Assembly: GCA_027314515.1 (NCBI GenBank)
Contig: DAHVAR010000048.1
Span: forward strand, 1-52,820
Direction of reading: 5' to 3'
Source of the DNA: Actinomycetota bacterium
GTDB lineage: Bacteria > Actinomycetota > Actinomycetes > Streptosporangiales > Streptosporangiaceae
DNA: 52,820 nucleotides
The notes beneath the pieces were generated by a model. It was given only the letters and a program-made list of their open reading frames with translations. It did not search any database and was not told where the DNA came from. This document shows, in pieces, positions 19,814 through 44,252 of the stretch. The stretch's first letter is position 1. Each line of letters begins with the position of its first letter. A program made the translations under genes and the position numbers.

Positions 19814-20221
19814 CCGAGGTTGCCCCCTCCGTCACCGCATTCCCTGGCCGGCTTTCTTCCTGGCCTGGTCGAGGACATCCGTCGCTCTCAGGATGTAAGG
19901 ATCCCAAAGACCCCGACGACTGCCAAACTGCGGTTTCGCCAAGCAGAGGACGGCCGGCCCGGCTGGTGCCGGGCTGGTGCCGGGCTGGTGCCGGGCTGGT
20001 GCCGGGCTGGTGCCGGCGGGGCGGCCGGACGCACGTCGCCGCGCCTGGGACGCCGGCCAGGACACGCCGCCTGAACTGCTGCGATGCGAAGTAGCGGGCC
20101 TCACCCGTAGCGCGGCCGGACGATATAGGCATGAGCAAGGCAGATAACGCAGCCGGCAACTGAGGTGCGCCGCCGCACTGCCCTGGGCGAAATCTTGCTT
20201 ATTTCGGCCCGCGGCAATGGC
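19814..20221. other. Intergenic region between argA and the riboswitch
   Basis: Holds a 5-copy 11-bp repeat (19961-20015) and presumably divergent promoters for argA and the riboswitch-led gene. No protein-like frame is seen; reading through the repeat gives only Arg/Pro/Ala/Gly-rich peptides. Confidence 0.5.
19961..20015. repeat. 11-bp tandem repeat (x5)
   Basis: Five perfect copies of GGCTGGTGCCG. It shares GGCTGG and the 11-base period with the repeat in front of radA (11498-11530). Confidence 0.95.
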
Positions 20222-33769: not shown

Positions 33770-35928
33770 TGAGCGCCGCCATCCGCAGGGCGATCCTCAC
33801 CCGGCCGGTCAGAGCCGGGCTGGTCAGAGCCGGGCATGCTCCCGCCGAGTGGACTGGCACCACCAAGCGGACTGGCACCACCGAGTGGACTGGCACCACC
33901 GAGTGGCGACCGGAAGTGACCGGCCGGGGGCGGCGGCGGCACGGCAGGCAACCCGGCAGCCGACGCCTGGCCGTTACCGAGCGCCGGCGTGATGGTGCCG
34001 TCGGCCGCGGCCGTGAGCGCTAGCTCCTTCGGAGTCAGCACCGGCGGCTTCTCCGACGGAAGCCGCTTGCCGTAGCCGGTGTAGGAGCCGCGCGTCGGCC
34101 GCTTGTGCACCGGCGAGAAGATCTCCAGAACCTGATCACGCGACAGCGTCTCGTGCTCGAGCAGCTGAAGCACCAGGTTGTCCAGCACGTCCCGGTACTG
34201 GACCAGGATCTCCCACGCCTCGTCGTGAGCGGACTCAATGAGACGACGGACCTCGTCATCGATGGCCGAAGCGATCTCCTCCGAGTAATCGCGTGCGTGC
34301 GACATCTCGCGGCCGAGGAACGGCTCACCGTCCCCGGTACCGAACTTGCGCGCGCCAAGGCGCTCGCTCATGCCGTACTCGGTCACCATCCCGCGAGCAA
34401 TCGAGGAGGCCTTCTCGATGTCGTTGGCCGCACCGGTTGTCGGCTCATGGAAGACCAGCTCTTCGGCAGTCCGGCCGCCGAGCAGCATGGACAGCTGATC
34501 CATCATCTCGGCGCGGCTGACCAGGAACTTGTCCTCCGCGGGCGCCGCGGCAGTGTAGCCGAGCGCACGGCCGCGCGGGATGATGGTGATCTTGTGGACC
34601 GGGTCGGCGTTGGGCAGCGCATGCCCGACCAGAGCGTGGCCGCCCTCGTGGTAAGCGATGATCTTCCGTTCCCGCTCAGAGAGCAGCACGCTCTTCCGCT
34701 TCGGCCCGGCGGTCACCCGGTCGATTGCTTCCTCGAGCGAGGCCATCTGGATCTGGGTCTGATTTGCCCGGGCGGTCAGCAGCGCGCCCTCGTTGATGAC
34801 GTTCGCGAGGTCCGCACCGGTAAAGCCCGGAGTGCGGCGGGCGATGATGTCCAGGTCCACATCCGGCGCGAACGGCTTGCCCCGTGCGTGCACCCGCAGG
34901 ATGCCCTTGCGGCCGGCCAGGTCAGGCTGGGCGACGACGATCTGCCGGTCGAACCGGCCGGGACGCAGCAGCGCCGGGTCCAGGATGTCGGGCCGGTTGG
35001 TGGCGGCGATGACGATAACGCCGCCCTTGGTGTCGAAGCCGTCCAGCTCGACGAGCAGCTGGTTCAGCGTCTGCTCGCGCTCGTCGTGCCCGCCGCCGAA
35101 ACCTGCCCCGCGGTGCCTGCCAACCGCGTCGATCTCGTCCACGAACACGATGGCAGGCGCGTTCGCCTTGGCCTGCTCGAACAAGTCGCGCACCCGGGAG
35201 GCGCCAACGCCGACGAACATCTCGACGAAGTCCGAGCCGGAGATCGAGTAGAACGGCACGCCCGCCTCGCCGGCCACGGCTCTTGCCAGCAGCGTCTTGC
35301 CTGTTCCAGGCGGACCGTACAGCAGCACGCCCTTGGGGATCTTGGCGCCGATGGCCTGGAACTTGCCCGGGCTCTGCAGGAATTCCTTGATCTCCTGGAG
35401 TTCCTCGATCGCCTCGTCGGCACCCGCCACGTCGGCGAACGTGGTCTTAGGCGTGTCCTTGGTGATGAGCTTGGCCTTGGACTTGCCGAAGTTCATGACC
35501 CGCGAGCCGCCGCCCTGCATCTGGTTCAGGAACACCATGAACAGCAGGAAGATGATCAAGAATGGCAGGTAGCTGAAGATCAGCGTCCAGAACGAGCTGC
35601 TCTTCGGCACCTTCACGGTGTAGACGCCGGACGGCAGCTTGCCGCTCTGCACCTCCTTCTGGAGGGTGTTGGCAAGCTGAGTGCCCTGGAAGCCGACCCA
35701 GGACGATTCCCAGTTGGCGTTGTTCTTCGTGGTCAGCTGGATGGTCTGGTCGACGTCGGTCAGCGTGACCGACTTCACGTTGCCCGAGTCGATCGCCGCG
35801 ATCGCCTGCGAGGTGGGGACCAGCTTGTACGCAGGCCCCGTACTGACCAGCTTGTACAGGATCACAAGGATGATGGCGACAAAGAGGATGGCAAGCACCC
35901 AGCCGCGGAAAATGCGCTTCAGATCCAT
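33766..35928 (-). CDS. ftsH: ATP-dependent zinc metalloprotease FtsH
   Basis: 720 residues from ATG 35928 (GTG 35943 is an in-frame alternative). Two membrane spans (about 8-28 and 105-125) flank an extracytoplasmic domain. AAA domain: GPPGTGKT near 200, [14 protein letters not shown], and the SRH region [17 protein letters not shown]. Peptidase: HEGGH near 415 with a downstream Asp ligand. It degrades membrane and some cytosolic proteins. The C-terminal 60 residues are low complexity, with repeated GGASPL and SDRPG units (33807-33906). folE is coupled to its stop. Confidence 0.96.
33807..33836. repeat. 15-bp tandem duplication in the ftsH 3' end
   Basis: Two copies (14/15 identical) of GGTCAGAGCCGGGCT on the plus strand; in frame, encoding part of the [10 protein letters not shown] tail. 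Confidence 0.8.
33847..33906. repeat. 18-bp tandem repeat (x3.3) in the ftsH 3' end
   Basis: Three copies plus a partial of GAGTGGACTGGCACCACC (plus strand); the middle copy has two changes. In frame, encoding repeated GGASPL hexapeptides in the FtsH tail. Confidence 0.92.
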
Positions 35929-36200
35929 CGATGAACGGCCCACAGGTCCGGCCGATCCCTCCTGACGAGCCTCGTGCCCCGCCGTCCCGGCGGGGCTACC
36001 TTGCTATCCAGCGCGAATGCGCGGCTATTTCTTCCCGCGCGAGGCACAGGAATACTCGACGGTACACCGCGATAGCCGTAGCCGGAACGCGGCAGGCCGC
36101 AAGGGTCAATGGCGGCCGTGTTACGCCTCTTACCCGGGTTAACGAAATTCATCGCCTGCTCGGTTCCCGGCGCCAGGCGGCCATGCAGTCAGCCAGCCGG

Positions 36201-36737
36201 CTACCGGTAGACATGCTCGGCCAGCGTGCCGATGAACGGCAGGTTCCGGTACTTTTCAGCATAATCGAGCCCGTAGCCGACGACGAACGAGTCGTCGATG
36301 TCGAACCCGGTGTAGGCCACCTCCACGTTCATCCGCGCCGCCGTCGGCTTGCGCAGCAGCACGCAGACGGCCACCGAGGCCGGCTCACGGGAGCGAAGGT
36401 TGCCGATCAGCCAGGACAGCGTGAGGCCGGAGTCCACGATGTCTTCGACTATCAGGACATGGCGCCCGCTGATGTCGATGTCCAGGTCCTTCAGGATCCG
36501 CACCACGCCGGAGGATTTCGTCCCCGACCCGTAGGAGGAGATCGCCATCCAGTCCATCTGCGCTGGCAGGTGCATGGCCCGGGCCAGATCGGCCATTACC
36601 ATCACGGCGCCCTTGAGCACTCCGATCAGCAAGAGTTCGCGGTCAGCATAATCGGCGTCGATCTGAGCAGCGAGCTCATGGATGCGCTGCTGCAGGTCCT
36701 GCTGCGTAATCAGGACGTCTTTGAGATCTGGCCCCAT
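36201..36737 (-). CDS. hpt: Hypoxanthine (guanine) phosphoribosyltransferase
   Basis: 178 residues from ATG 36737, one base after the tilS stop. It salvages hypoxanthine/guanine to IMP/GMP with [35 protein letters not shown], the PRPP motif [17 protein letters not shown] (about 94-110) and [22 protein letters not shown] are typical. tilS-hpt-ftsH order is conserved from Firmicutes to actinobacteria. The 272-base gap before ftsH should carry the ftsH promoter; I see no clear box there. Confidence 0.95.
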
Positions 36738-36738
36738 G

Positions 36739-37854
36739 TCATTCGCATCCACCCGCGTCCTCCCATCGCGCCGCCGCTCCCTGACCCCCGGCTGTGCTGT
36801 CCCGGGGGGCGACCCCCGGACCCCCCGCTGTGCTGTCCCCGGGGGCGACCCCCGGACCCCCGGATCTGGTGAAGAGCAGCCTGCCAGAGTGGCGACGGCA
36901 CCTGACCCCGCCGGGCAGGTCAATCCACCGCTGTCCGTGCCATCCGGTCACCAGTTCGTCCAGGCTCGCCAGGTGGCGCTGGGACAGCGACCCCGCCGGG
37001 CACCCGGCCGCAAGCGCGGCGCTGCGCAGCAGCCGCAGCCGGATTGCCAGCGCCAGCCCGGCCAGCGCGCTGGCTGGCCAGCCGCTGGCCTGCGCCTCCT
37101 CCGGACCGCCGAGCCGCCCGGCCTCGGTTGCCGCCAGCGCGTCCAGCACCTCAGCGTCAGCACGCAGCAGCGCCGCAGTTCTGGCCAGCGCCTCCGCCAC
37201 GCCGGGCCCGAGTGCCTCGTCGATGGCGGGCATCAGGCACCGCACCCGCGTCCTAGTGAACGCCAGGTCGCTGTTCTGCGGGTCATCCCACGGCTGTAGG
37301 CCCTCGGCGGAGCAGGCAGCCATGGTTTGCGAGCGCCGCAGCCCAAGCAGCGGCCGCCGGTAGCGGCCGGCCACCGGTGCCATCCCGGCCAGCGAGCGCG
37401 CGCCGGAGCCGCGGCAAAGGCCCAGCAGCACCGTCTCAGCCTGGTCGTCGAGCGTGTGGCCGAGCAGCAGCCACGCGTCGTGGCGCTCGGCCGCGACGTC
37501 GAGCGCGGCATACCGGGCCGACCGGGCGGCCGCCTCCGGACCCGGGTAGCTTCCGCCGTCCTCCGGCCGGGCCACCGTGACGGCCACCGACAGCACCGGG
37601 CGCAGACCGAGGCCATGAAGTACGGCGGTGACCCGGCTGGCCTGCTCTGACGATCCGGGCTGCAAGCCGTGGTCGACGGTGATACCGCCGGCCACCAGGC
37701 CCGCTTTGGGCGCCTCGAACGCGATGGCGGCGGCAAGCGCCAGCGAATCCGCTCCGCCTGAGCACGCCGCAAGCACTGCGGTCCCTGGCTCGAGGTCGGC
37801 CAGACTGGCCCTGACGGCGTGCCGCACCGCTGCGACTGCCGGATGCGGGCCCAC
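36739..37854 (-). CDS. tilS: tRNA(Ile)-lysidine synthase
   Basis: 371 residues from GTG 37854, eight bases after the metalloprotease stop. TilS modifies C34 of tRNA(Ile)CAU to lysidine using ATP and lysine. P-loop [15 protein letters not shown] (about 33-47), [40 protein letters not shown] and [15 protein letters not shown] are present. The last 30 residues form a tail of two GGPGVAPxDSTA units encoded by a 36-bp tandem repeat (36793-36864), not part of the usual fold. Confidence 0.93.
36793..36864. repeat. 36-bp tandem repeat (x2) at the tilS 3' end
   Basis: Two 36-base copies. Core features are TGTGCTGTCC, then CGGGG, CGACCCCCGGACCCCC. In frame with tilS (minus). About 31 of 36 positions match the repeat inside the NUDIX gene at 43536-43615 read on the opposite strand. 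Confidence 0.9.
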
Positions 37855-37862
37855 CGGGCCGC

Positions 37863-38990
37863 TCAGTCCGCGGTGGTGGAGTCTGCCGGGCTCGCCGCCG
37901 CGCCGCCACCGTCGACCCTGGCGAGCCAGGATAGCGGATGCTGCAGCTCTTCCCTGGTCGGCAAAGTCTCCGGCGAGGTCCATACCTTGTTGAAGGTCTC
38001 CATCCCGGCTTCGTCGACGACCGCCTTGACGAACCGCGAGCCCTGCTCGTATTGCTTCATCTTCAGGTCGATGCCGAGCACGCGCCGGATGGCCTGCTCG
38101 AGCCTGCCCGCCGTTCCGCGGCGGGCGCTGAACTTCGCCCTGATCTCGGCGACCGACGGGACCACGGCCGGCCCGACCGCGTCCATGACGTAGTCTCCGT
38201 GACCCTCGACCAGTGTCATGACGCTGGTCATCCGGTCCAGGATGGCCCGCTGCCGGGGGCTCTGGATGGCCTCGATGAGGCTCTCTCCATCGCCGCCGCG
38301 CACCGCGCCCGCCACCGCGTCGGCCGCGGCCCGCAGGCGTTCCAGAATCGAGGCCGGGTCCAGGTCGGAGGCGAGCAGGAACTCCGACATCTGCTCCTGG
38401 ACATACGGGCGGAGCCATGGCACGGAGGTGAACTGGGTGCGGTGCGTCTCCTCGTGCAGGCAGACCCAGCGCCGGAAGTCATGCGGGTTCACGTCAAGCT
38501 CACGCTCGACCATCACGATGTTGGGCGCGACCAGCGTCAGCCGCCCGGATGGCGTCCCGGTACCCGGCCCGTCCGGGTCTGGTGGGAGGAACAGCTCGTA
38601 CTGGCCCAGAACCCGGCCGGCTAGGTAGGCGAGAATGAGGCCGGCCTGCATGCCGGTAACCCGCGAGCCCACCGCAGTCATCACCGAGCCGGGCTGCGGT
38701 GCGGCACCGCTGTCCGACATCCGCTGTACGAGCGGGTCGAGCACGACCCGGAAGCCGTCCACGTTGGCGCGGATCCAGCCCGGCCGGTCGACGACCGCCA
38801 CCTTGCCGTCGTCCGGGGCGCCCGGCAGTCCGGTCAGCTCGCGGACCGGCTCGGCAACCACGCCGGCCAGCTGCCGCAGCTCAGCCACGACCTTCCTGGC
38901 CTCGGTCATGCCGACCTGGGGGCCCGGCCTGACCCAACGGACCCCGGTGGAGGTAGCGACCTGCCAGTCGATCATCTGAGTGCTGCTCAC
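37863..38990 (-). CDS. Zinc-dependent metalloprotease, F420-biosynthesis-associated family (DUF2342)
   Basis: 375 residues. It matches the actinobacterial family annotated as zinc-dependent metalloprotease or coenzyme F420 biosynthesis-associated protein (Rv3626c position). [18 protein letters not shown] starts the domain; HEETH in [12 protein letters not shown] is the zinc motif (about 177-181). [13 protein letters not shown], shared by the family, supplies another metal region. No signal peptide. The substrate is unknown and the F420 link is by annotation habit only. GTG 38990 lies six bases after TACGGT, supporting this start over ATG 38975. Confidence 0.85.
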
Positions 38991-38996
38991 CCCTCC

Positions 38997-39002
38997 ACCG
39001 TA
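38997..39002 (-). promoter_or_regulatory. Putative -10 box of the metalloprotease-tilS-hpt unit (leaderless)
   Basis: TACGGT on the minus strand, six bases before GTG 38990. GGAGGG directly abuts the GTG, too close to act as a ribosome site. Confidence 0.45.
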
Positions 39003-39062
39003 CGTGGCGCCGGGCCCTTTCCGCCCCGCCGGGCCGTTAGTCGCCGAAACGAGCAGAACCAG

Positions 39063-40490
39063 CTAACGGCAACCGCAGCCGGCCAGTGTGCTCCCTAGCT
39101 CGACCATCGCCGTGGCAGCGCTGAACAGACTGGCAGCAGGAATCTTGTCGGCCATGATGGCGAAGGCGAGCAACTGCCCGTTCCCGGCGTAGACGGTCCC
39201 GGCGAGTGCCGCGACCGTGTTCAGGTTCCCTGTCTTGGCCCGCACGACGCCGAGGCCGGCCGGGCCGCCGAGGCCGAACACGCTGGCGCCCTGCATCAGG
39301 GTGCCGGAGAAGCCCTCGACCGGCAGGCTGGTGAGCACCGATCCCAGCCGGGCGTGACGGGCCGCCAGGCGGAGCAGCTGAACGAGCACCGTCGGCGCGA
39401 TCTTGTCCTTCGGTGACAGGCCGCTGTTGTCGACGATGCTTATCTCGCCGGTGACGCCGAGACGGCGCACGACGGCAGTCACCGCGCTGGCGGCACCGCT
39501 GAACGAGGCCGGCCGGCCAGTGGCTATCGCGACCTGACGCCCCAGGTTCTCGGCGATGACGTTGTTGCTCTGCTCGAGCATCCACTGAACGATCTCGGCC
39601 AGCGGCGGCGACTGCACGCGGGCTATGGTCGCGTCCCCGGCGGGAGCGGTGACGAGCGCCGGGGTGCCGCGGACCGTGATGCCATCGGCCGTGAGGAAGC
39701 CGGCGAACGAGGTAGCGGCGAGTGCAGCCGGGTCGGCCGACCTGGGCCCGCCGAATGCCTCGTTGTCAGCAGGCGCCCCGGCAGGTGTCACCCGTCCCTG
39801 GTCAACCTCGAGCGGGGTGATGATCGATACGTTGCCGGTCGTCACGTAACTCTGCGGCCAGCCCGGCGCAAGTCCGGGCCCGGTATAGAGCGAGACGTCA
39901 TAGCCGAGCTGCACGCTGTGCCGGCCGCGCGCTCGCAGCGCTGCCGCCGTTTCGGCGGCCAGCCCGGCGAGCGTGGCCGGCCGCGGATAGTCCGATGCGG
40001 CCGGCGGGCCAGCCGCCAGTGTCGGGTCGCCGCCGCCCACCAGCACGATAGACGAGGCTGCCGGGTTGGCCACAACGGTGGTGGCGAAGCGGGCCGAGGG
40101 TCCGAGTACCTGCAGCGCCGCGGTGGCCGTGGCCAGCTTGTTGGTCGAGGCCGGGGCGAAGCCGACCGCCGGGTTGAGTGCGTACAGCACCTTCCCGGTT
40201 GCCAGGTCGGTGATCAGCACCCCAACGTGCGGGCCCAGGGCCGGCGAGCTGATCACTGGTCCGATGGCCTGAGCCACGCCAGCGGCAGTCGCTGCGACCC
40301 GCTGGCTCACCGTGCCGGTCGTGGCCGGCAGCACCCGGTCCGGTCCGGCGAGCCGGCCCGCGGTGACATGCGGCAGTTGCCAGAGCGCGAGGCGGCGGGG
40401 AAGCAGCCTGCTGACGGTGAAACCAGCGGCAATGGTGAGGGCGCACAGCACCGCGATGACTGCCGCCACAGCACTCCTCGGCCGACGCAA
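39063..40490 (-). CDS. dacB: D-alanyl-D-alanine carboxypeptidase/endopeptidase (PBP4, DacB-like)
   Basis: 475 residues. One N-terminal membrane anchor or signal (about 8-25), then a class C low-molecular-mass penicillin-binding domain with SxxK (S115-T-N-K118 in FAPASTNKL), SxN (QSNNVIAENL) and KTG (VRAKTGNLNTV). It trims or cleaves cross-links of peptidoglycan outside the membrane. The start is TTG 40490 with AAGGGA eight bases upstream; GTG 40469 with GAGGAG is a close alternative. It corresponds in position to Rv3627c and is divergent from ppa. Confidence 0.93.
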   Translation of the reverse strand: MRRPRSAVAAVIAVLCALTIAAGFTVSRLLPRRLALWQLPHVTAGRLAGPDRVLPATTGTVSQRVAATAAGVAQAIGPVISSPALGPHVGVLITDLATGKVLYALNPAVGFAPASTNKLATATAALQVLGPSARFATTVVANPAASSIVLVGGGDPTLAAGPPAASDYPRPATLAGLAAETAAALRARGRHSVQLGYDVSLYTGPGLAPGWPQSYVTTGNVSIITPLEVDQGRVTPAGAPADNEAFGGPRSADPAALAATSFAGFLTADGITVRGTPALVTAPAGDATIARVQSPPLAEIVQWMLEQSNNVIAENLGRQVAIATGRPASFSGAASAVTAVVRRLGVTGEISIVDNSGLSPKDKIAPTVLVQLLRLAARHARLGSVLTSLPVEGFSGTLMQGASVFGLGGPAGLGVVRAKTGNLNTVAALAGTVYAGNGQLLAFAIMADKIPAASLFSAATAMVELGSTLAGCGCR

Positions 40491-40636
40491 CGATAGATTC
40501 CCTTCACCCGATGCGCTGTCCCCGCGTTAGCTTTCCGATGCGTGATGTGCTACCCCTCGGTGGAGACTGGCAAAGTGCGACCGGGTAGACATCAGCCAGG
40601 CAATCCAACTTCTTATCAAGCCCGTGGGGGTGTGAC

Positions 40637-41137
40637 GTGGAGTTCGAGGTAATCGTCGAGATCCCGAAGGGGCAGCGTAACAAGTACGAGATGGACCACG
40701 AGACGGGGCGTATCAAGCTAGACCGGATGTTGTTCACCTCGACTCGCTATCCATCCGATTACGGCTTCATCGAGGACACGCTTGCCGACGACGGAGACCC
40801 ACTCGACGCACTCGTGCTGCTCGAAGAGCCCACCTTCCCCGGCTGCCAGATCCACTGCCGCGCGATCGGCATGTTCCGGATGCGGGATGAGAAGGGCTCC
40901 GACGACAAGGTGCTCTGCGTCGCGGCGACGGATCCGCGGATGGCTCACCTGCGGGACATCGGCGATGTGCCGCAGTTCGACCAGCTCGAAATCCAGCACT
41001 TCTTCGAGGTGTACAAGGCGATCGAGCCCGGCAAGGAAGTCGAGGCCGCCAGGTGGGTAGGCGTCGAAGCGGCCGAGGCCGAGATTGAGGCCTGCCGCCG
41101 GCGGCTGGCCGGCCGGCCCGGCCCGCGGCACCCTTAG
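40637..41137 (+). CDS. ppa: Inorganic pyrophosphatase (family I)
   Basis: 166 residues. It hydrolyses pyrophosphate to drive biosynthesis forward. It begins [17 protein letters not shown], contains [24 protein letters not shown] with the metal-binding DxDPxD, and ends [24 protein letters not shown]. Length and motifs are standard for bacterial hexameric PPases. The GTG start lies behind GGGGGTG. Divergent promoters for ppa and dacB share 146 bases (40491-40636). Confidence 0.96.
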
Positions 41138-41211
41138 GCGCCTGGCTGAGGGATGCAGGATGACGGGCAGCCGGAACGGGCACCACGTAGTTGTCGGCCG
41201 CAGGAGGGATC

Positions 41212-41895
41212 ATGGTTAACACTGATGACGTACTCAGTGAGACGCCGCTGTTCGAGGCGCTCAGCGAGGAAGACGCCGCCGCGCTCCGAGCAGGCGTCAC
41301 TGACGTCCAGCTTGACCGTGGTGAGCGCTTGTTCGCCGAGGGCGACGCCGGCGACAAGCTCTATATCATCCTGACCGGCAAGATCAAGCTCACCAGGGCT
41401 GCGCCGGACGGCAGGGAAAACCTGCTGAGCGTGCACGGTCCGGGCGAGATGTTCGGGGAGCTGTCGCTCTTCGACCCGATCCCGCGTACGTCCAGCGCCA
41501 CCGCGGTCACCAGCGCGCGGCTGGCCGGGTTGGCTCACGACGACCTGCGAACCTGGCTGAGCACCAGGCCGGAGGTCGCCATGCACCTGCTGCAAGCGCT
41601 TGCCCAGCGGCTGCGCCGGATCAACGACGTCAAGGCCGACCTCGTCTTCACCGATGTGCCCGGCCGGGTCGCGAAGGCACTGCTTGACCTAGCCGAGCGG
41701 TTCGGCGTGCAGACGCCGGAGGGCGTACAGGTCAGCCACGACCTCACTCAGGAGGAGCTGGCCCAGCTCGTCGGCGCGTCCAGGGAAACGGTCAACAAGG
41801 CGCTCGCCGATTTCACCGCTCGCGGCTGGATTCAGCTGGCCGCCAAATCGGTCCTGGTCACCGACACCGACCGGCTGCGCAAGCGCGCCCGGTGA
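41212..41895 (+). CDS. crp: Crp/Fnr-family cAMP-responsive regulator
   Basis: 227 residues from ATG 41212, which has AGGAGGGATC directly upstream. An N-terminal cyclic-nucleotide domain (GERLFAEGDAGDKLYIILTGKIKL; cAMP pocket MFGELSLFDPIPRTSSAT) precedes a C-terminal winged helix (HDLTQEELAQLVGASRETVNKALADF). It is close throughout to M. tuberculosis Crp (Rv3676), so cAMP-linked global control is likely. It is convergent with the MBL gene, 41 bases apart. Confidence 0.95.
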   Translation: MVNTDDVLSETPLFEALSEEDAAALRAGVTDVQLDRGERLFAEGDAGDKLYIILTGKIKLTRAAPDGRENLLSVHGPGEMFGELSLFDPIPRTSSATAVTSARLAGLAHDDLRTWLSTRPEVAMHLLQALAQRLRRINDVKADLVFTDVPGRVAKALLDLAERFGVQTPEGVQVSHDLTQEELAQLVGASRETVNKALADFTARGWIQLAAKSVLVTDTDRLRKRAR

Positions 41896-41936
41896 CAGGA
41901 CAACAGCGAAAGACGCCGGGAACGGGGGTGAGGTCG

Positions 41937-42809
41937 CTAGCCCTCGCCGGATGGCCGGCCGCTTGCAGCCCCGTTCCCAGCCTTCTCGGCGGGCAGCTCG
42001 CCCACGCGGCGAAGGTAGTGCAGCTGGGCGCGGACCGAAGACTCGGCGAACTGCCACAGCCGGGGGTCAACGGCCGCGTACACCCGGGCGACGATCTCGG
42101 CCGGACCGCGATCGCCCGCGGCGATCGCGGCGCGAACCTCGTCGAGCCGCTCGGCCCGGTGCGTCAGGTAGAAATCCAGCACGCCAGCCGGATCGGCGAG
42201 CAGCGGGCCGTGTCCTGGCAGCAGGGCTGACAGGCCAGTCTCCTCGGTCAGCGCCCGCAGCCGCCGCAGCGAGTCCAGGTAGTCGGCGAGGCTGCCGTCC
42301 TCGGCGATGACCGCAGTACCCCGGCCGAGCACCGTATCTCCGGTGAGGACGATGTCGTCGGCCGGGACGTGCAGGCACACGGAGTCGTCGGTGTGCCCTG
42401 GAGTAGCGATGACCCGCAGCTCACAGCCGCCGCTGTCGAGCACGTCGCCCGCCACCAGGCCGTTGCTGCCCAGCCGGTGCGCGGGATCGACTGCGCGGAC
42501 GGGCGCGCCGGTCAGCTCGGCCAGCCGCGGAGCTCCGGCCGAGTGATCCAGGTGCCGGTGGGTGAGCACGATATCGGCCACGCGCTGGCCGCGCCCGGCT
42601 GCCATCGAGCAGATCCGCTGCAGGTGAGCCTCGTCGTCCGGGCCGGGATCGATAACCACAACCGCGGCGGAGCCGGGCTCGGCGACTAGCCAGGTGTTCG
42701 TTCCGTCCAGCGTCATCAGCGACGGATTCGGCGCCAGCAGGCACCGCACCCGCTCGGTGCCTGAGCCGTCGATGCCGGCCCCGGCCCCGGCCGGGCTGCC
42801 CGGATTCAT
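41937..42809 (-). CDS. MBL-fold metallo-hydrolase
   Basis: 290 residues from ATG 42809, overlapping the NUDIX stop by four bases. Zinc motif THRHLDH (about 81-87), a later GHTDDS histidine, GDTVLG and PGHGP complete the metallo-beta-lactamase site. A C-terminal helical domain (about 230-275) resembles the LACTB2/Rv3677c group. These cleave thioesters or RNA in characterised relatives; the substrate here is unknown. It is the last gene of the DUF4177-RidA-NUDIX-MBL unit. Confidence 0.88.
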   Translation of the reverse strand: MNPGSPAGAGAGIDGSGTERVRCLLAPNPSLMTLDGTNTWLVAEPGSAAVVVIDPGPDDEAHLQRICSMAAGRGQRVADIVLTHRHLDHSAGAPRLAELTGAPVRAVDPAHRLGSNGLVAGDVLDSGGCELRVIATPGHTDDSVCLHVPADDIVLTGDTVLGRGTAVIAEDGSLADYLDSLRRLRALTEETGLSALLPGHGPLLADPAGVLDFYLTHRAERLDEVRAAIAAGDRGPAEIVARVYAAVDPRLWQFAESSVRAQLHYLRRVGELPAEKAGNGAASGRPSGEG

Positions 42810-43750
42810 GCGGCCCCGCGGGGCCCGGCCGGGTACCCGCTGAGCCCTGGCACGGTCAGCCAGGCCGCGCCCTCGCGGAGGTGGACTGCCGGGATGATGG
42901 GCGCGACCTGCCGCGGCCCGGTCAGCACCGCGTCCAGGCCGCCGCACTCGGCCAGTTCGGACAGCGTCACGGCAGTGGGCGGGAACAGCAGGATCTCGCC
43001 CCGCTTCCCTGCCGCCAGCGCGTCGCCGGGCTGCACCCACGCGACCTGCGAAGCCTCGCCGCCGACATCCCTGGTGCGCTGCCCGGCGGGCAGCGCCGCC
43101 GCGAAGAAGCGGGTGTCGAACCGGCGCGGTTCGATGATCGGCGTAATCCACCGCGACCACGGGCGCAGCAGGTCGGCCCGGAGCACAAGCCGCCGGCGAG
43201 CGAGCAACTCGGCCAGCGACACCGAACGGTCGAGCAGGGCTTGCCGGTCCGCCTCCCACTCGTCGCTGGTGGTGTCGGCCACGACGGAGTCAGCTGACTC
43301 GCCCGCCAGCAGCACGCCCGATTCCTCGAACGTCTCTCGCACCGCGGCGCACACGAGCGCCATGGCCAGTGACGGCGGGGCGTCGAAGACCCGGCCCCAT
43401 TCGCTGGCGTCCGGTCCCGCCCAGGCAATCTGCTCGTCGGTGTCCCGCGGATCGACCGATCCGCCAGGGAAGACGCAGGCCCCCGGCGCGAATGCCATCG
43501 TCGGCTTGCGCCGGAGCAGGTAGACCTCGAGTCCGGCACCGCCGGGGGTCCGGGGGTCGTTCCCCGGGGCAGCACCGCCGGGGGTCCGGGGGTCGTTCCC
43601 CGCGGCAGCACCGCGCTCCCGCAGCAGCATCACTGTCGCCGCGTCCCTGGGGACGGCAGGAGCCTGATTGCCCGCCAGGATGTCGCGCGCGGGACCGGCG
43701 AGCTCGCCCGGAAGCCGGATAGCGGCAGCCTGCACTGAGTCATCCGCCAC
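42806..43750 (-). CDS. NUDIX hydrolase with internal repeat
   Basis: 314 residues from GTG 43750 (AGGAGG five bases upstream). A large Nudix of the NUDT19/CoA-pyrophosphatase-like type: an insertion of about 40 residues separates GACVFPGGSVDPRD from the box end AAVRETFEESGVLL. All box glutamates are kept, so it should be active on a nucleoside diphosphate or CoA-type substrate. An N-terminal loop (about 46-70) is lengthened by two GNDPRTPGGA units coded by a 36-bp repeat. ATGA overlap with the MBL gene. Confidence 0.88.
   Translation of the reverse strand: MADDSVQAAAIRLPGELAGPARDILAGNQAPAVPRDAATVMLLRERGAAAGNDPRTPGGAAPGNDPRTPGGAGLEVYLLRRKPTMAFAPGACVFPGGSVDPRDTDEQIAWAGPDASEWGRVFDAPPSLAMALVCAAVRETFEESGVLLAGESADSVVADTTSDEWEADRQALLDRSVSLAELLARRRLVLRADLLRPWSRWITPIIEPRRFDTRFFAAALPAGQRTRDVGGEASQVAWVQPGDALAAGKRGEILLFPPTAVTLSELAECGGLDAVLTGPRQVAPIIPAVHLREGAAWLTVPGLSGYPAGPRGAA
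43536..43615. repeat. 36-bp tandem repeat (x2.2) in the NUDIX gene
   Basis: Two full copies of a 36-base unit plus a partial, containing CCGGGGGTCCGGGGGTCG. In frame. On the complementary strand it matches the tilS repeat (36793-36864) at about 31 of 36 positions. Confidence 0.92.
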
Positions 43751-43772
43751 GTGCGCCTCCTGCCCGGCCGGC

Positions 43773-44252
43773 CTATTCCCCGACTTCGACGATGAGCTCG
43801 ATCTCCACCGGGGCGTCGAGCGGCAGCGCCGCCGTACCGACCGCGCTGCGCGCATGCCGACCCGCGTCACCGAAGATCTCAAGCAGCAGCTCGCTTGCGC
43901 CGTTTACCACGCCAGGCTGCCCAGTGAAGTCTGGCGAGCTGGCTACGAACCCGGTCAGCTTGACGATGCGCTTAATCGAGGCCAGGCCGCCGGCCACTGA
44001 GGCCGCCGCGGCCAGCGCGTTGAGGGCGCACGTTCGTGCCAGCGCGGCCGCCTCGGCCGCTCCGACTTCCGCCCCGACCTTTCCGGCCGAGACGAGCTGG
44101 CCGTCGACCATGGGCAACTGCCCGGCGGTGTAAACCATCGCGCCGGAGCGGACCGCGGGCACGTAGGCGGCCAGCGGCGCGACTACCGGCGGCAGGGTCA
44201 GCCCCAGCGCCGCCAGCCGCTGCTCAGGCCCGGATGTGCCGGCCTGCGTCAT
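43773..44252 (-). CDS. RidA/YjgF-family protein
   Basis: 159 residues from ATG 44252, overlapping the DUF4177 stop by four bases. RidA proteins hydrolyse reactive enamines/imines. It has the LPPVVAPLAAYVPAVRSGAMVYTAGQLPMVDGQLV opening, the NALAAAASVAGGLASIKRIVKLTGFVAS middle and the GRHARSAVGTAALPLDAPVEIELIVEV end. The usual catalytic Arg is matched by R in GRHARSAVG. Length and position correspond to Rv3678c, a longer RidA subgroup whose substrate is not settled. Confidence 0.9.
   Translation of the reverse strand: MTQAGTSGPEQRLAALGLTLPPVVAPLAAYVPAVRSGAMVYTAGQLPMVDGQLVSAGKVGAEVGAAEAAALARTCALNALAAAASVAGGLASIKRIVKLTGFVASSPDFTGQPGVVNGASELLLEIFGDAGRHARSAVGTAALPLDAPVEIELIVEVGE

Follow-up and report, generated by a model that had tools for sequence, protein, structure and literature searches.

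A 36-bp GC-rich repeat unit in tilS and a NUDIX gene is probably a short dispersing DNA element of actinobacteria

Why do two unrelated genes of one actinobacterial contig carry the same 36-bp sequence in frame? The question arises from a stretch of 52,820 nucleotides (contig DAHVAR010000048.1 of assembly GCA_027314515.1, family Streptosporangiaceae; hereafter the window), in which tandem copies of a GC-rich unit lie in the tail of tilS and within a NUDIX hydrolase gene. We consider it highly likely that the unit is a short palindromic DNA element, non-autonomous and 12 codons in length, which spreads at the DNA level and whose arrays afterwards grow and shrink in the manner of a minisatellite. 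Direct support comes from its occurrence at non-homologous sites, the existence of orthologues without it, the preservation of the reading frame, the use of all six frames and the change of array length in 36-bp steps.

Tandem Repeats Finder (TRF) reported two arrays of period 36 in the window, at 36779-36861 (2.3 copies) and at 43536-43614 (2.2 copies), the first antisense to tilS and the second in the sense direction of the NUDIX gene. After reverse complementation of the NUDIX array, the best ungapped match of a tilS unit was 31/36, with 30/36 for the other tilS unit, and the local alignment of the two arrays scored 94, compared with a maximum of 39 among 300 Markov shuffles of both stretches. 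A 17-base core allowing up to two mismatches occurred four times in the window, all within the two arrays, where shuffles predicted 0.13 occurrences. In TilS the Pfam domain ends at residue 330 of 375, and the array therefore sits in the tail behind it. The NUDIX array encodes GAAAGNDPRTPGGAAPGNDPRTPGGA, placed between MLLR and GLEVYLLRR; the PF00293 score of this gene is barely above the cut-off (22.8 versus 21.1 bits). These results bear out the original prediction, made from the letters alone, of a shared period-36 unit matching at about 31 of 36 positions and of peptides that differ with orientation, including GNDPRTPGGA in the NUDIX protein.

Table 1. Copies of the 36-bp unit in the window and the genes that contain them
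Feature	Position	Strand	Evidence
36-bp unit, tilS-tail copy 1 (antisense to tilS)	36793..36828	+	TRF, nhmmer; extended pattern exact at 36794-36827
36-bp unit, tilS-tail copy 2	36829..36864	+	TRF, nhmmer; 33/36 identity with copy 1
Further unit, truncated to one end, upstream of the tilS array	36779..36792	+	Part of TRF array 36779-36861
tilS, array encodes part of the tail, start codon not fixed	36739..37866	-	PF01171 and PF09179
36-bp unit, NUDIX copy 1 (on the gene's own strand)	43579..43614	-	TRF, nhmmer
36-bp unit, NUDIX copy 2	43543..43578	-	TRF, nhmmer; comparison with sister genome G006
NUDIX hydrolase gene, start codon not fixed	42806..43750	-	PF00293

The unit extends well beyond the window. 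The window is contig C123 of its own genome (G000; 5.86 Mb over 280 contigs), and a third array was found on contig C110; together with many copies in relatives, this removes the objection, named in advance, that the genome might hold no others. A search of 60 genomes, in which the best 15 candidates per genome were scored, gave a match at E<=1e-4 in 18 genomes (G000 included), among them all nine of the genus, although the match in G059 resembles chance by eye (L031). With a 16-base core and one mismatch, 87 matches were counted in the nine genus genomes, G000 included (G002 31, G008 22, G005 14, G007 6, G000 5, G006 4, G001 2, G003 2 and G004 1), versus 2 for the reversed control; because sites were picked by this core with at most one mismatch, degraded copies are under-counted, and the genus genomes have a completeness of 72-98%. 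A longer core matched 103 of 250 family genomes, in 33 of 68 genera, with high copy numbers in G002, G008, G180 and G062, and every control gave 0; the patterns differ in reach, since G003, G004 and G022 matched in the 60-genome search and not with the longer family core. Across the class, a 34-base pattern with up to three mismatches was present in 27 of 394 genomes, which belong to 7 of 138 genera, with no match for the controls. By our own table count these carriers comprise 18 of 39 genomes of family f20, six genomes of f19 and three of f1, and we take f20 to be the Streptomyces family because named Streptomyces loci fall among the f20 rows in the gene tree described below. Finally, an exact 33-base pattern was found in 19 stretches of genome contigs across families, from metagenome-assembled genomes (MAGs) of Streptosporangiaceae, one Actinoallomurus MAG, two other actinobacterial MAGs and five Streptomyces, in agreement with the link to GC-rich repeats elsewhere among actinobacteria that was proposed at the outset. 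In four f20 genomes (G526, G599, G540 and G421), two units separated by exactly 92 bp occur repeatedly, which suggests a conserved composite site. Viral contigs contained no exact core match, and blastn gave no match in 50,697 phage and 72,556 plasmid records, a search in which low-complexity filtering may hide matches; carriage by phages or plasmids was set aside on these results.

An alignment of 57 copies (sites up to E 0.004) gives, in our own summary, a consensus of about CNGTGCTNNCCCGGGGGRCGACCCCCGGANCCCCCG, in which CGACCC is invariant. The unit consists of a GTGCT head, a 7-bp G+C hairpin with a four-base loop and an ACCCCCG tail, the core CCGGGGG-RCGA-CCCCCGG being able to form the hairpin. 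Of the hairpin cells in the alignment 91.0% are paired, versus at most 69.2% in slid controls. The tandem-read consensus is free of stop codons in all six frames, and so are 44 of 59 actual 34-mers (17 of 22 in genes and 27 of the 37 others). Neighbouring copies within 150 bp lie head to tail, with 32 same-strand pairs and no opposite pair. By eye, the two ends of the unit, CNGTGCT and ACCCCCG, do not form inverted repeats, with the true ends known at one site only, and the flanks of 22 single units, also read by eye, showed no target-site motif apart from a C that commonly precedes the NGTGCT head. Neither array matched a family of Rfam 15 at E<=1 in the region 36000-44000, and one unrelated sub-threshold match fell elsewhere. 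A subfamily at L050, L051, L055, L092, L100 and L104 has GTAC in place of GGAC (CCCCCGTACCCCC). The units at L092, L100 and L104 adjoin terminator-like hairpins centred on GGCAAGCC or GGCGAGCC, and at L100 the neighbouring hairpin is also absent at the orthologous G007 site.

To place the copies relative to genes, the regions around the 16-base-core sites were made into a profile, with which 59 of 66 clusters were kept at E<=0.01 and seven dropped; the 59 include two of the window and two of G006, and the sites G002:C644 and G008:C21 stand outside them. A home-made gene caller based on codon log-odds put 22 arrays inside predicted genes and 37 not, so that the proposed comparison of genic and intergenic placement yielded both; the caller did not place the NuoH and HisA arrays inside their genes and put the ECH gene (L090) on the opposite strand. 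The genic arrays are internal in ten cases, C-terminal in eight and N-terminal in four. The other 37 lie in gaps between tandem genes (19), between convergent (9) or divergent (3) genes, or at contig edges (6). Hosts checked with Pfam are TilS, the NUDIX protein, an enoyl-CoA hydratase (ECH), an anthranilate/chorismate-binding enzyme (TrpE-like) and an ABC transporter, together with proteins matching Helicase_C, class I tRNA synthetase, PIG-L deacetylase, NADHdh, DPPIV_N peptidase and His_biosynth, which we take to be RecG, ValS, an MshB-like protein, NuoH, an S9 peptidase and HisA, respectively. Further hosts, named from their sequence only, are presumably SucC, PrfA, a DmpA-like peptidase (L059:5508) and, at L102, adenosylhomocysteinase.

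Several of these sites are empty in orthologous genes. The NUDIX site holds two units in G000, one in the sister genome G006 and none in G001, G003, G005, G007 and G008; G002 ends at a contig edge there, and G004 gave no match. The insert of the S9 peptidase is absent from 8/8 orthologues and that of the ABC transporter from 4/4, and the ECH of G008 has 105 extra bases relative to G007, with none of its eight orthologues carrying the insert. At the N-terminus of the MshB-like protein, six of eight orthologues lack the unit, G007 has it and G002 has an unrelated extension. The situation is different for tilS. Its tail carries the unit in G005 and G006 and, by eye, degraded unit-like sequence in G001, G002 and G003 (the comparison covers these five genomes and G000), and these copies and remnants mark the tilS tail as an older site of the unit. 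The expectation that orthologues of both genes would be found without the unit thus held for NUDIX, where five congeners are readable across the site, and failed for tilS within the genus.

A search with joined flanks was also made between G007 and G008, using 21 query sites and scoring the best 40 candidates per genome. Of the 19 sites that were then aligned, 12 were judged by eye to be empty in the other genome (L090, L091, L095, L097, L064:3015, L098, L100, L092, L060, L058, L061 and L101), six to be shared or degraded (L064:5836, L093, L059:2567, L104, L099 and L059:5508) and one (L096) to be ambiguous. As a separate observation, the NuoH N-terminus in G000 (L216, C186) has, in the position of the 36-bp array of G008, a different tandem repeat with a period that by eye is about 15 bp; seen in these sequences, the start of NuoH looks like a hot spot for permissive N-terminal repeats.

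The clearest empty and filled forms were found in Streptomyces. All five Streptomyces stretches with the exact match hold the unit at one place in a 3-hydroxyacyl-CoA dehydrogenase (3HCDH; PF02737 and PF00725 in the one of the five that was scanned), as an insert of 12 residues between LWPGLREHF and TK, in a frame that is also used in ECH. The class sample adds one filled locus, L288, which brings the filled loci to six (L271, L279, L281, L282, L284 and L288); the S. rhizosphaerihabitans group is among the filled species. Among the f20 loci L287-L312, 25 of 26 were readable (all except L311), one being filled and 24 empty; since the first five loci were picked for having the unit, only 1/25 counts as a frequency. 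Relative to the filled form, 22 of the 24 empty loci are shorter by 12 residues, and L302 and L312, which have an extra codon of their own, by 11. As we read the aligned DNA, the placement of the 36-bp insert is uncertain by no more than a single base, which leaves no room here for a target duplication longer than 1 bp. CAT directly precedes the insert in 6/6 filled loci, and CAC stands there in the 23 f20 empty loci of the DNA alignment.

The placement of most arrays outside predicted genes, many of them no more than tens of bases away from the end of a gene, raises the alternative that the unit is a functional DNA or RNA signal, such as a terminator, a protein-binding site or a 3' stabiliser, selected at gene ends, with the genic copies being accidental. 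Some units also adjoin the terminator-like hairpins with GGCAAGCC or GGCGAGCC centres. However, related species differ in a patchy way in whether they have the unit, it is found in both orientations, no Rfam family was matched, copies placed in the coding sequence of core enzymes would be costly as terminators, and the origin of new copies would be left unexplained. We therefore regard this explanation as unlikely, and a role as terminator or stabiliser would be compatible, as a secondary one, with a mobile element.

Less probable still is a repetitive extragenic palindromic (REP) element mobilised by a REP-associated tyrosine transposase (RAYT). With REP elements and the bacterial interspersed mosaic elements (BIMEs) the unit shares a short, imperfectly palindromic hairpin, a conserved, GT-rich 5' head, dispersal, and many copies close to gene ends. 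REP elements, in the excerpted text of PMC2817692, are mostly extragenic, usually exceed 100 copies per genome, have a GT(A/G)G head, often form inverted pairs and are tied to RAYTs. In contrast, the present unit has a GTGCT head and no opposite pairs and reaches 1-31 core matches per genus genome. By the home-made gene caller, 22 of 59 arrays lie inside predicted genes and the other 37, the majority, outside. The RAYT domain PF01797 (Y1_Tnp) was found in 0/18 carriers versus 12/42 other genomes (p 0.012, not corrected for kinship, nine of the 18 carriers being of one genus and 72-98% complete), and a RAYT, although the known driver of short hairpin repeats, was consequently judged improbable here. 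This does not exclude it completely, as the Y1-bearing genomes G012 and G034 have one and three matches to the longer core.

Change in copy number is seen most directly between the sister genomes G000 and G006, which are 95.5-97.3% identical elsewhere in the aligned stretches. All three arrays compared differ by exactly 36 bp, with two versus three units in tilS, two versus one in the NUDIX gene and two versus one on C110, and such whole-unit differences in tandem between close relatives are those of a variable-number tandem repeat (VNTR) or minisatellite. Might each array then have been born in place from GC-rich sequence by local slippage only? Sister arrays varying by one unit are what slippage would give. 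One unit is nevertheless common to unrelated genes, contigs, genera and families, and single units are the commonest cluster size (33 of 59, versus 20 with two units and six with three), so that slippage alone is refuted by single units at non-homologous sites and keeps a very small probability. In being an actinobacterial dispersed repeat that has turned into a VNTR, in part at gene borders, the unit resembles the mycobacterial interspersed repetitive units (MIRU-VNTR), from which it differs in that MIRUs are longer (about 50-100 bp), known only from mycobacteria and largely intercistronic. As a side observation, the arrays at L060, L069, L091 and L101 have periods of 51, 54, 42 and 44, the repeated unit taking in extra sequence beside the core, and the L060 array is flanked by short GGCAG repeats, which suggests tandem duplication through microhomology.

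The 22 genic arrays span all six classes of orientation and phase. As called, 11 are antisense phase 0, three each are sense phases 1 and 2, two each are antisense phases 1 and 2, and one is sense phase 0. After ECH was corrected from its listed class to antisense phase 1, sense phase 1 rests on the unverified genes L065 and L073, plus NuoH, which lies outside the caller's list. With six frames in use, the encoded peptides differ, as in AGVPGVAPRAST (S9 peptidase), RGFRGSPPWPAP (L059:5508), VLAWGATPRTP (NuoH) and GNDPRTPGGAAP (NUDIX); the ECH and TrpE-like arrays each encode further, differing 12-residue peptides. A shared protein motif or convergent low-complexity loops would fit the Gly/Pro/Arg-rich, linker-like composition of the peptides and the single frame of half the genic copies, but are hardly credible and are refuted by DNA that is shared while peptides differ across six frames, by intergenic copies identical in sequence and by exact 33-base matches across families. 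Dispersed copies, NUDIX orthologues without the unit and the six frame classes together uphold the earlier suggestion of a repeat that spreads at the DNA level.

Spacing between units also differs with placement. Within genes it was a multiple of three in 14/14 cases (twelve of 36 and two of 42), and outside genes in 11/17, where eight spacings were 36 and the others were 33, 34, 35 (three times), 38, 44, 51 and 54 (Fisher p 0.021); the counts use an anchor pattern blind to degenerate copies and cover arrays other than those of RecG and NuoH. From this contrast, 36 bp looks like a property of the unit itself, with selection in genes removing off-frame variants.

A short dispersing element could account for these observations as follows. 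New copies would be made from existing ones and inserted elsewhere by trans-acting machinery, which probably acts on the hairpin and, at the 3HCDH site, would leave no target duplication longer than 1 bp. Insertions that break genes would be purged, and copies in loops, linkers and termini would be tolerated because the unit is 12 codons long and its consensus is stop-free in any frame. After insertion, slippage or unequal recombination at the GC-rich hairpin would add or remove whole units, so that the protein would change by 12 residues at a time, and no benefit to the host protein need be assumed.

Several points weigh against this account. An enzyme that could mobilise the unit was not found, nor was the unit seen to move. 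The sites in ValS, the TrpE-like linker, RecG, NuoH and HisA vary in length in orthologues anyway, which makes these five weaker as cases; the orthologues shown are nevertheless without the unit, except NuoH of G007. Borders are sharp at the Streptomyces site only; elsewhere, diverged flanks could hide a short target duplication, and GCGGTGC stands on both sides of the NUDIX insert. Covariation in the hairpin is weak, since only four cells show a change on both sides, against eight in each of two slid controls, and compensatory pairing was accordingly discarded as proof of a selected hairpin; DNA folding of the unit is only modestly better than that of shuffles (z between -0.8 and -2.0). Antisense phase 0 by itself accounts for 11 of the 22 genic copies, a bias that may reflect mild filtering of the peptide at the protein level. 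Finally, the filled 3HCDH loci are scattered over the gene tree, and simple vertical descent does not explain them. The tree of the flanks was fitted with six changes, at least two of them forced by well-supported branches, and most forks are open. This scatter, together with CAT before every insert, suggests either that the insert arose once and was passed between species through recombination of short tracts, or that the same target was hit repeatedly.

Among known systems, the 36-bp element works most like the Rickettsia palindromic elements (RPEs), yet is not a member of them. The excerpts of PMC2229807, PMC10969869 and PMC6649704 describe RPEs as lying in frame in conserved genes, the first two adding that these protein genes are unrelated and that RPEs also lie between genes. 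RPEs measure 105-146 bp, have 12-bp terminal inverted repeats and each encode a conserved peptide (PMC2229807, PMC10969869, in the same excerpts), and a Wolbachia counterpart is cited in PMC2229807. The likeness lies in a palindromic DNA repeat in frame within unrelated conserved protein genes. The present unit differs in being 36 bp long, GC-rich, with only an internal 7-bp stem, arranged head to tail in tandem and found in Actinomycetes, and in using all six frames without one conserved peptide, though 11 of 22 genic copies share one frame. Enterobacterial repetitive intergenic consensus (ERIC) sequences and the 107-bp form of the Correia element also fuse in frame with open reading frames (ORFs), according to the excerpt of PMC2229807. 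Miniature inverted-repeat transposable elements (MITEs), to which ERIC and Correia belong, are likewise non-autonomous, short and able to form stem-loops. Their terminal inverted repeats and typically AT-rich sequence (PMC10969869, in part) contrast with a GC-rich unit that by eye has no terminal inverted repeats, its true ends being known at one site. Young MITEs also have target duplications (PMC10969869, in part); none longer than 1 bp was seen at the 3HCDH site, and the other sites are without sharp borders. One Porphyromonas gingivalis MITE holds a minisatellite (PMC4596501, in part). In the accessible text of a survey of stem-loop repeats (PMC2267715), structured families lie mostly between genes, which makes genic copies of the 36-bp unit unusual. 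A literature search that included strings of the unit brought up no account of it recognised by title or abstract, most subscription literature being outside that search.

In-frame colonisation of conserved genes is best described for Rickettsia, with ERIC and Correia fusions also known, and here concerns GC-rich actinobacteria and a far shorter unit. It comes with the orthologues without the unit, the use of six frames, the one-unit difference in Streptomyces and the unit-wise change of length between sisters. These sites form a natural series of 12-residue insertions in which filled and empty forms of an enzyme are directly comparable, and because Streptomyces is easy to work with, it becomes possible to test how such minimal repeats are moved when no transposase is known for them. 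More tentatively, and with the odds somewhat against it, the unit may represent a new minimal class of mobile element in Actinomycetes, a 36-bp stop-free hairpin cassette common to Streptosporangiaceae and Streptomyces and moved by a non-RAYT enzyme without target duplication, producing 12-residue insertions in essential proteins, the copy number of which changes reversibly. If so, it would be a standing generator of such in-frame insertions.

Two other tandem repeats were noted in the window. At 33845-33906, an 18-bp repeat (3.4 copies), unrelated to the 36-bp unit, encodes repeated SPLGGA in the C-terminal tail of an ORF that we take to be ftsH-like. At 19957-20016, an 11-bp repeat is present in 5.5 copies with 97% match, and under the home-made codon model none of the six frames of its 200-base flanks scores as coding.

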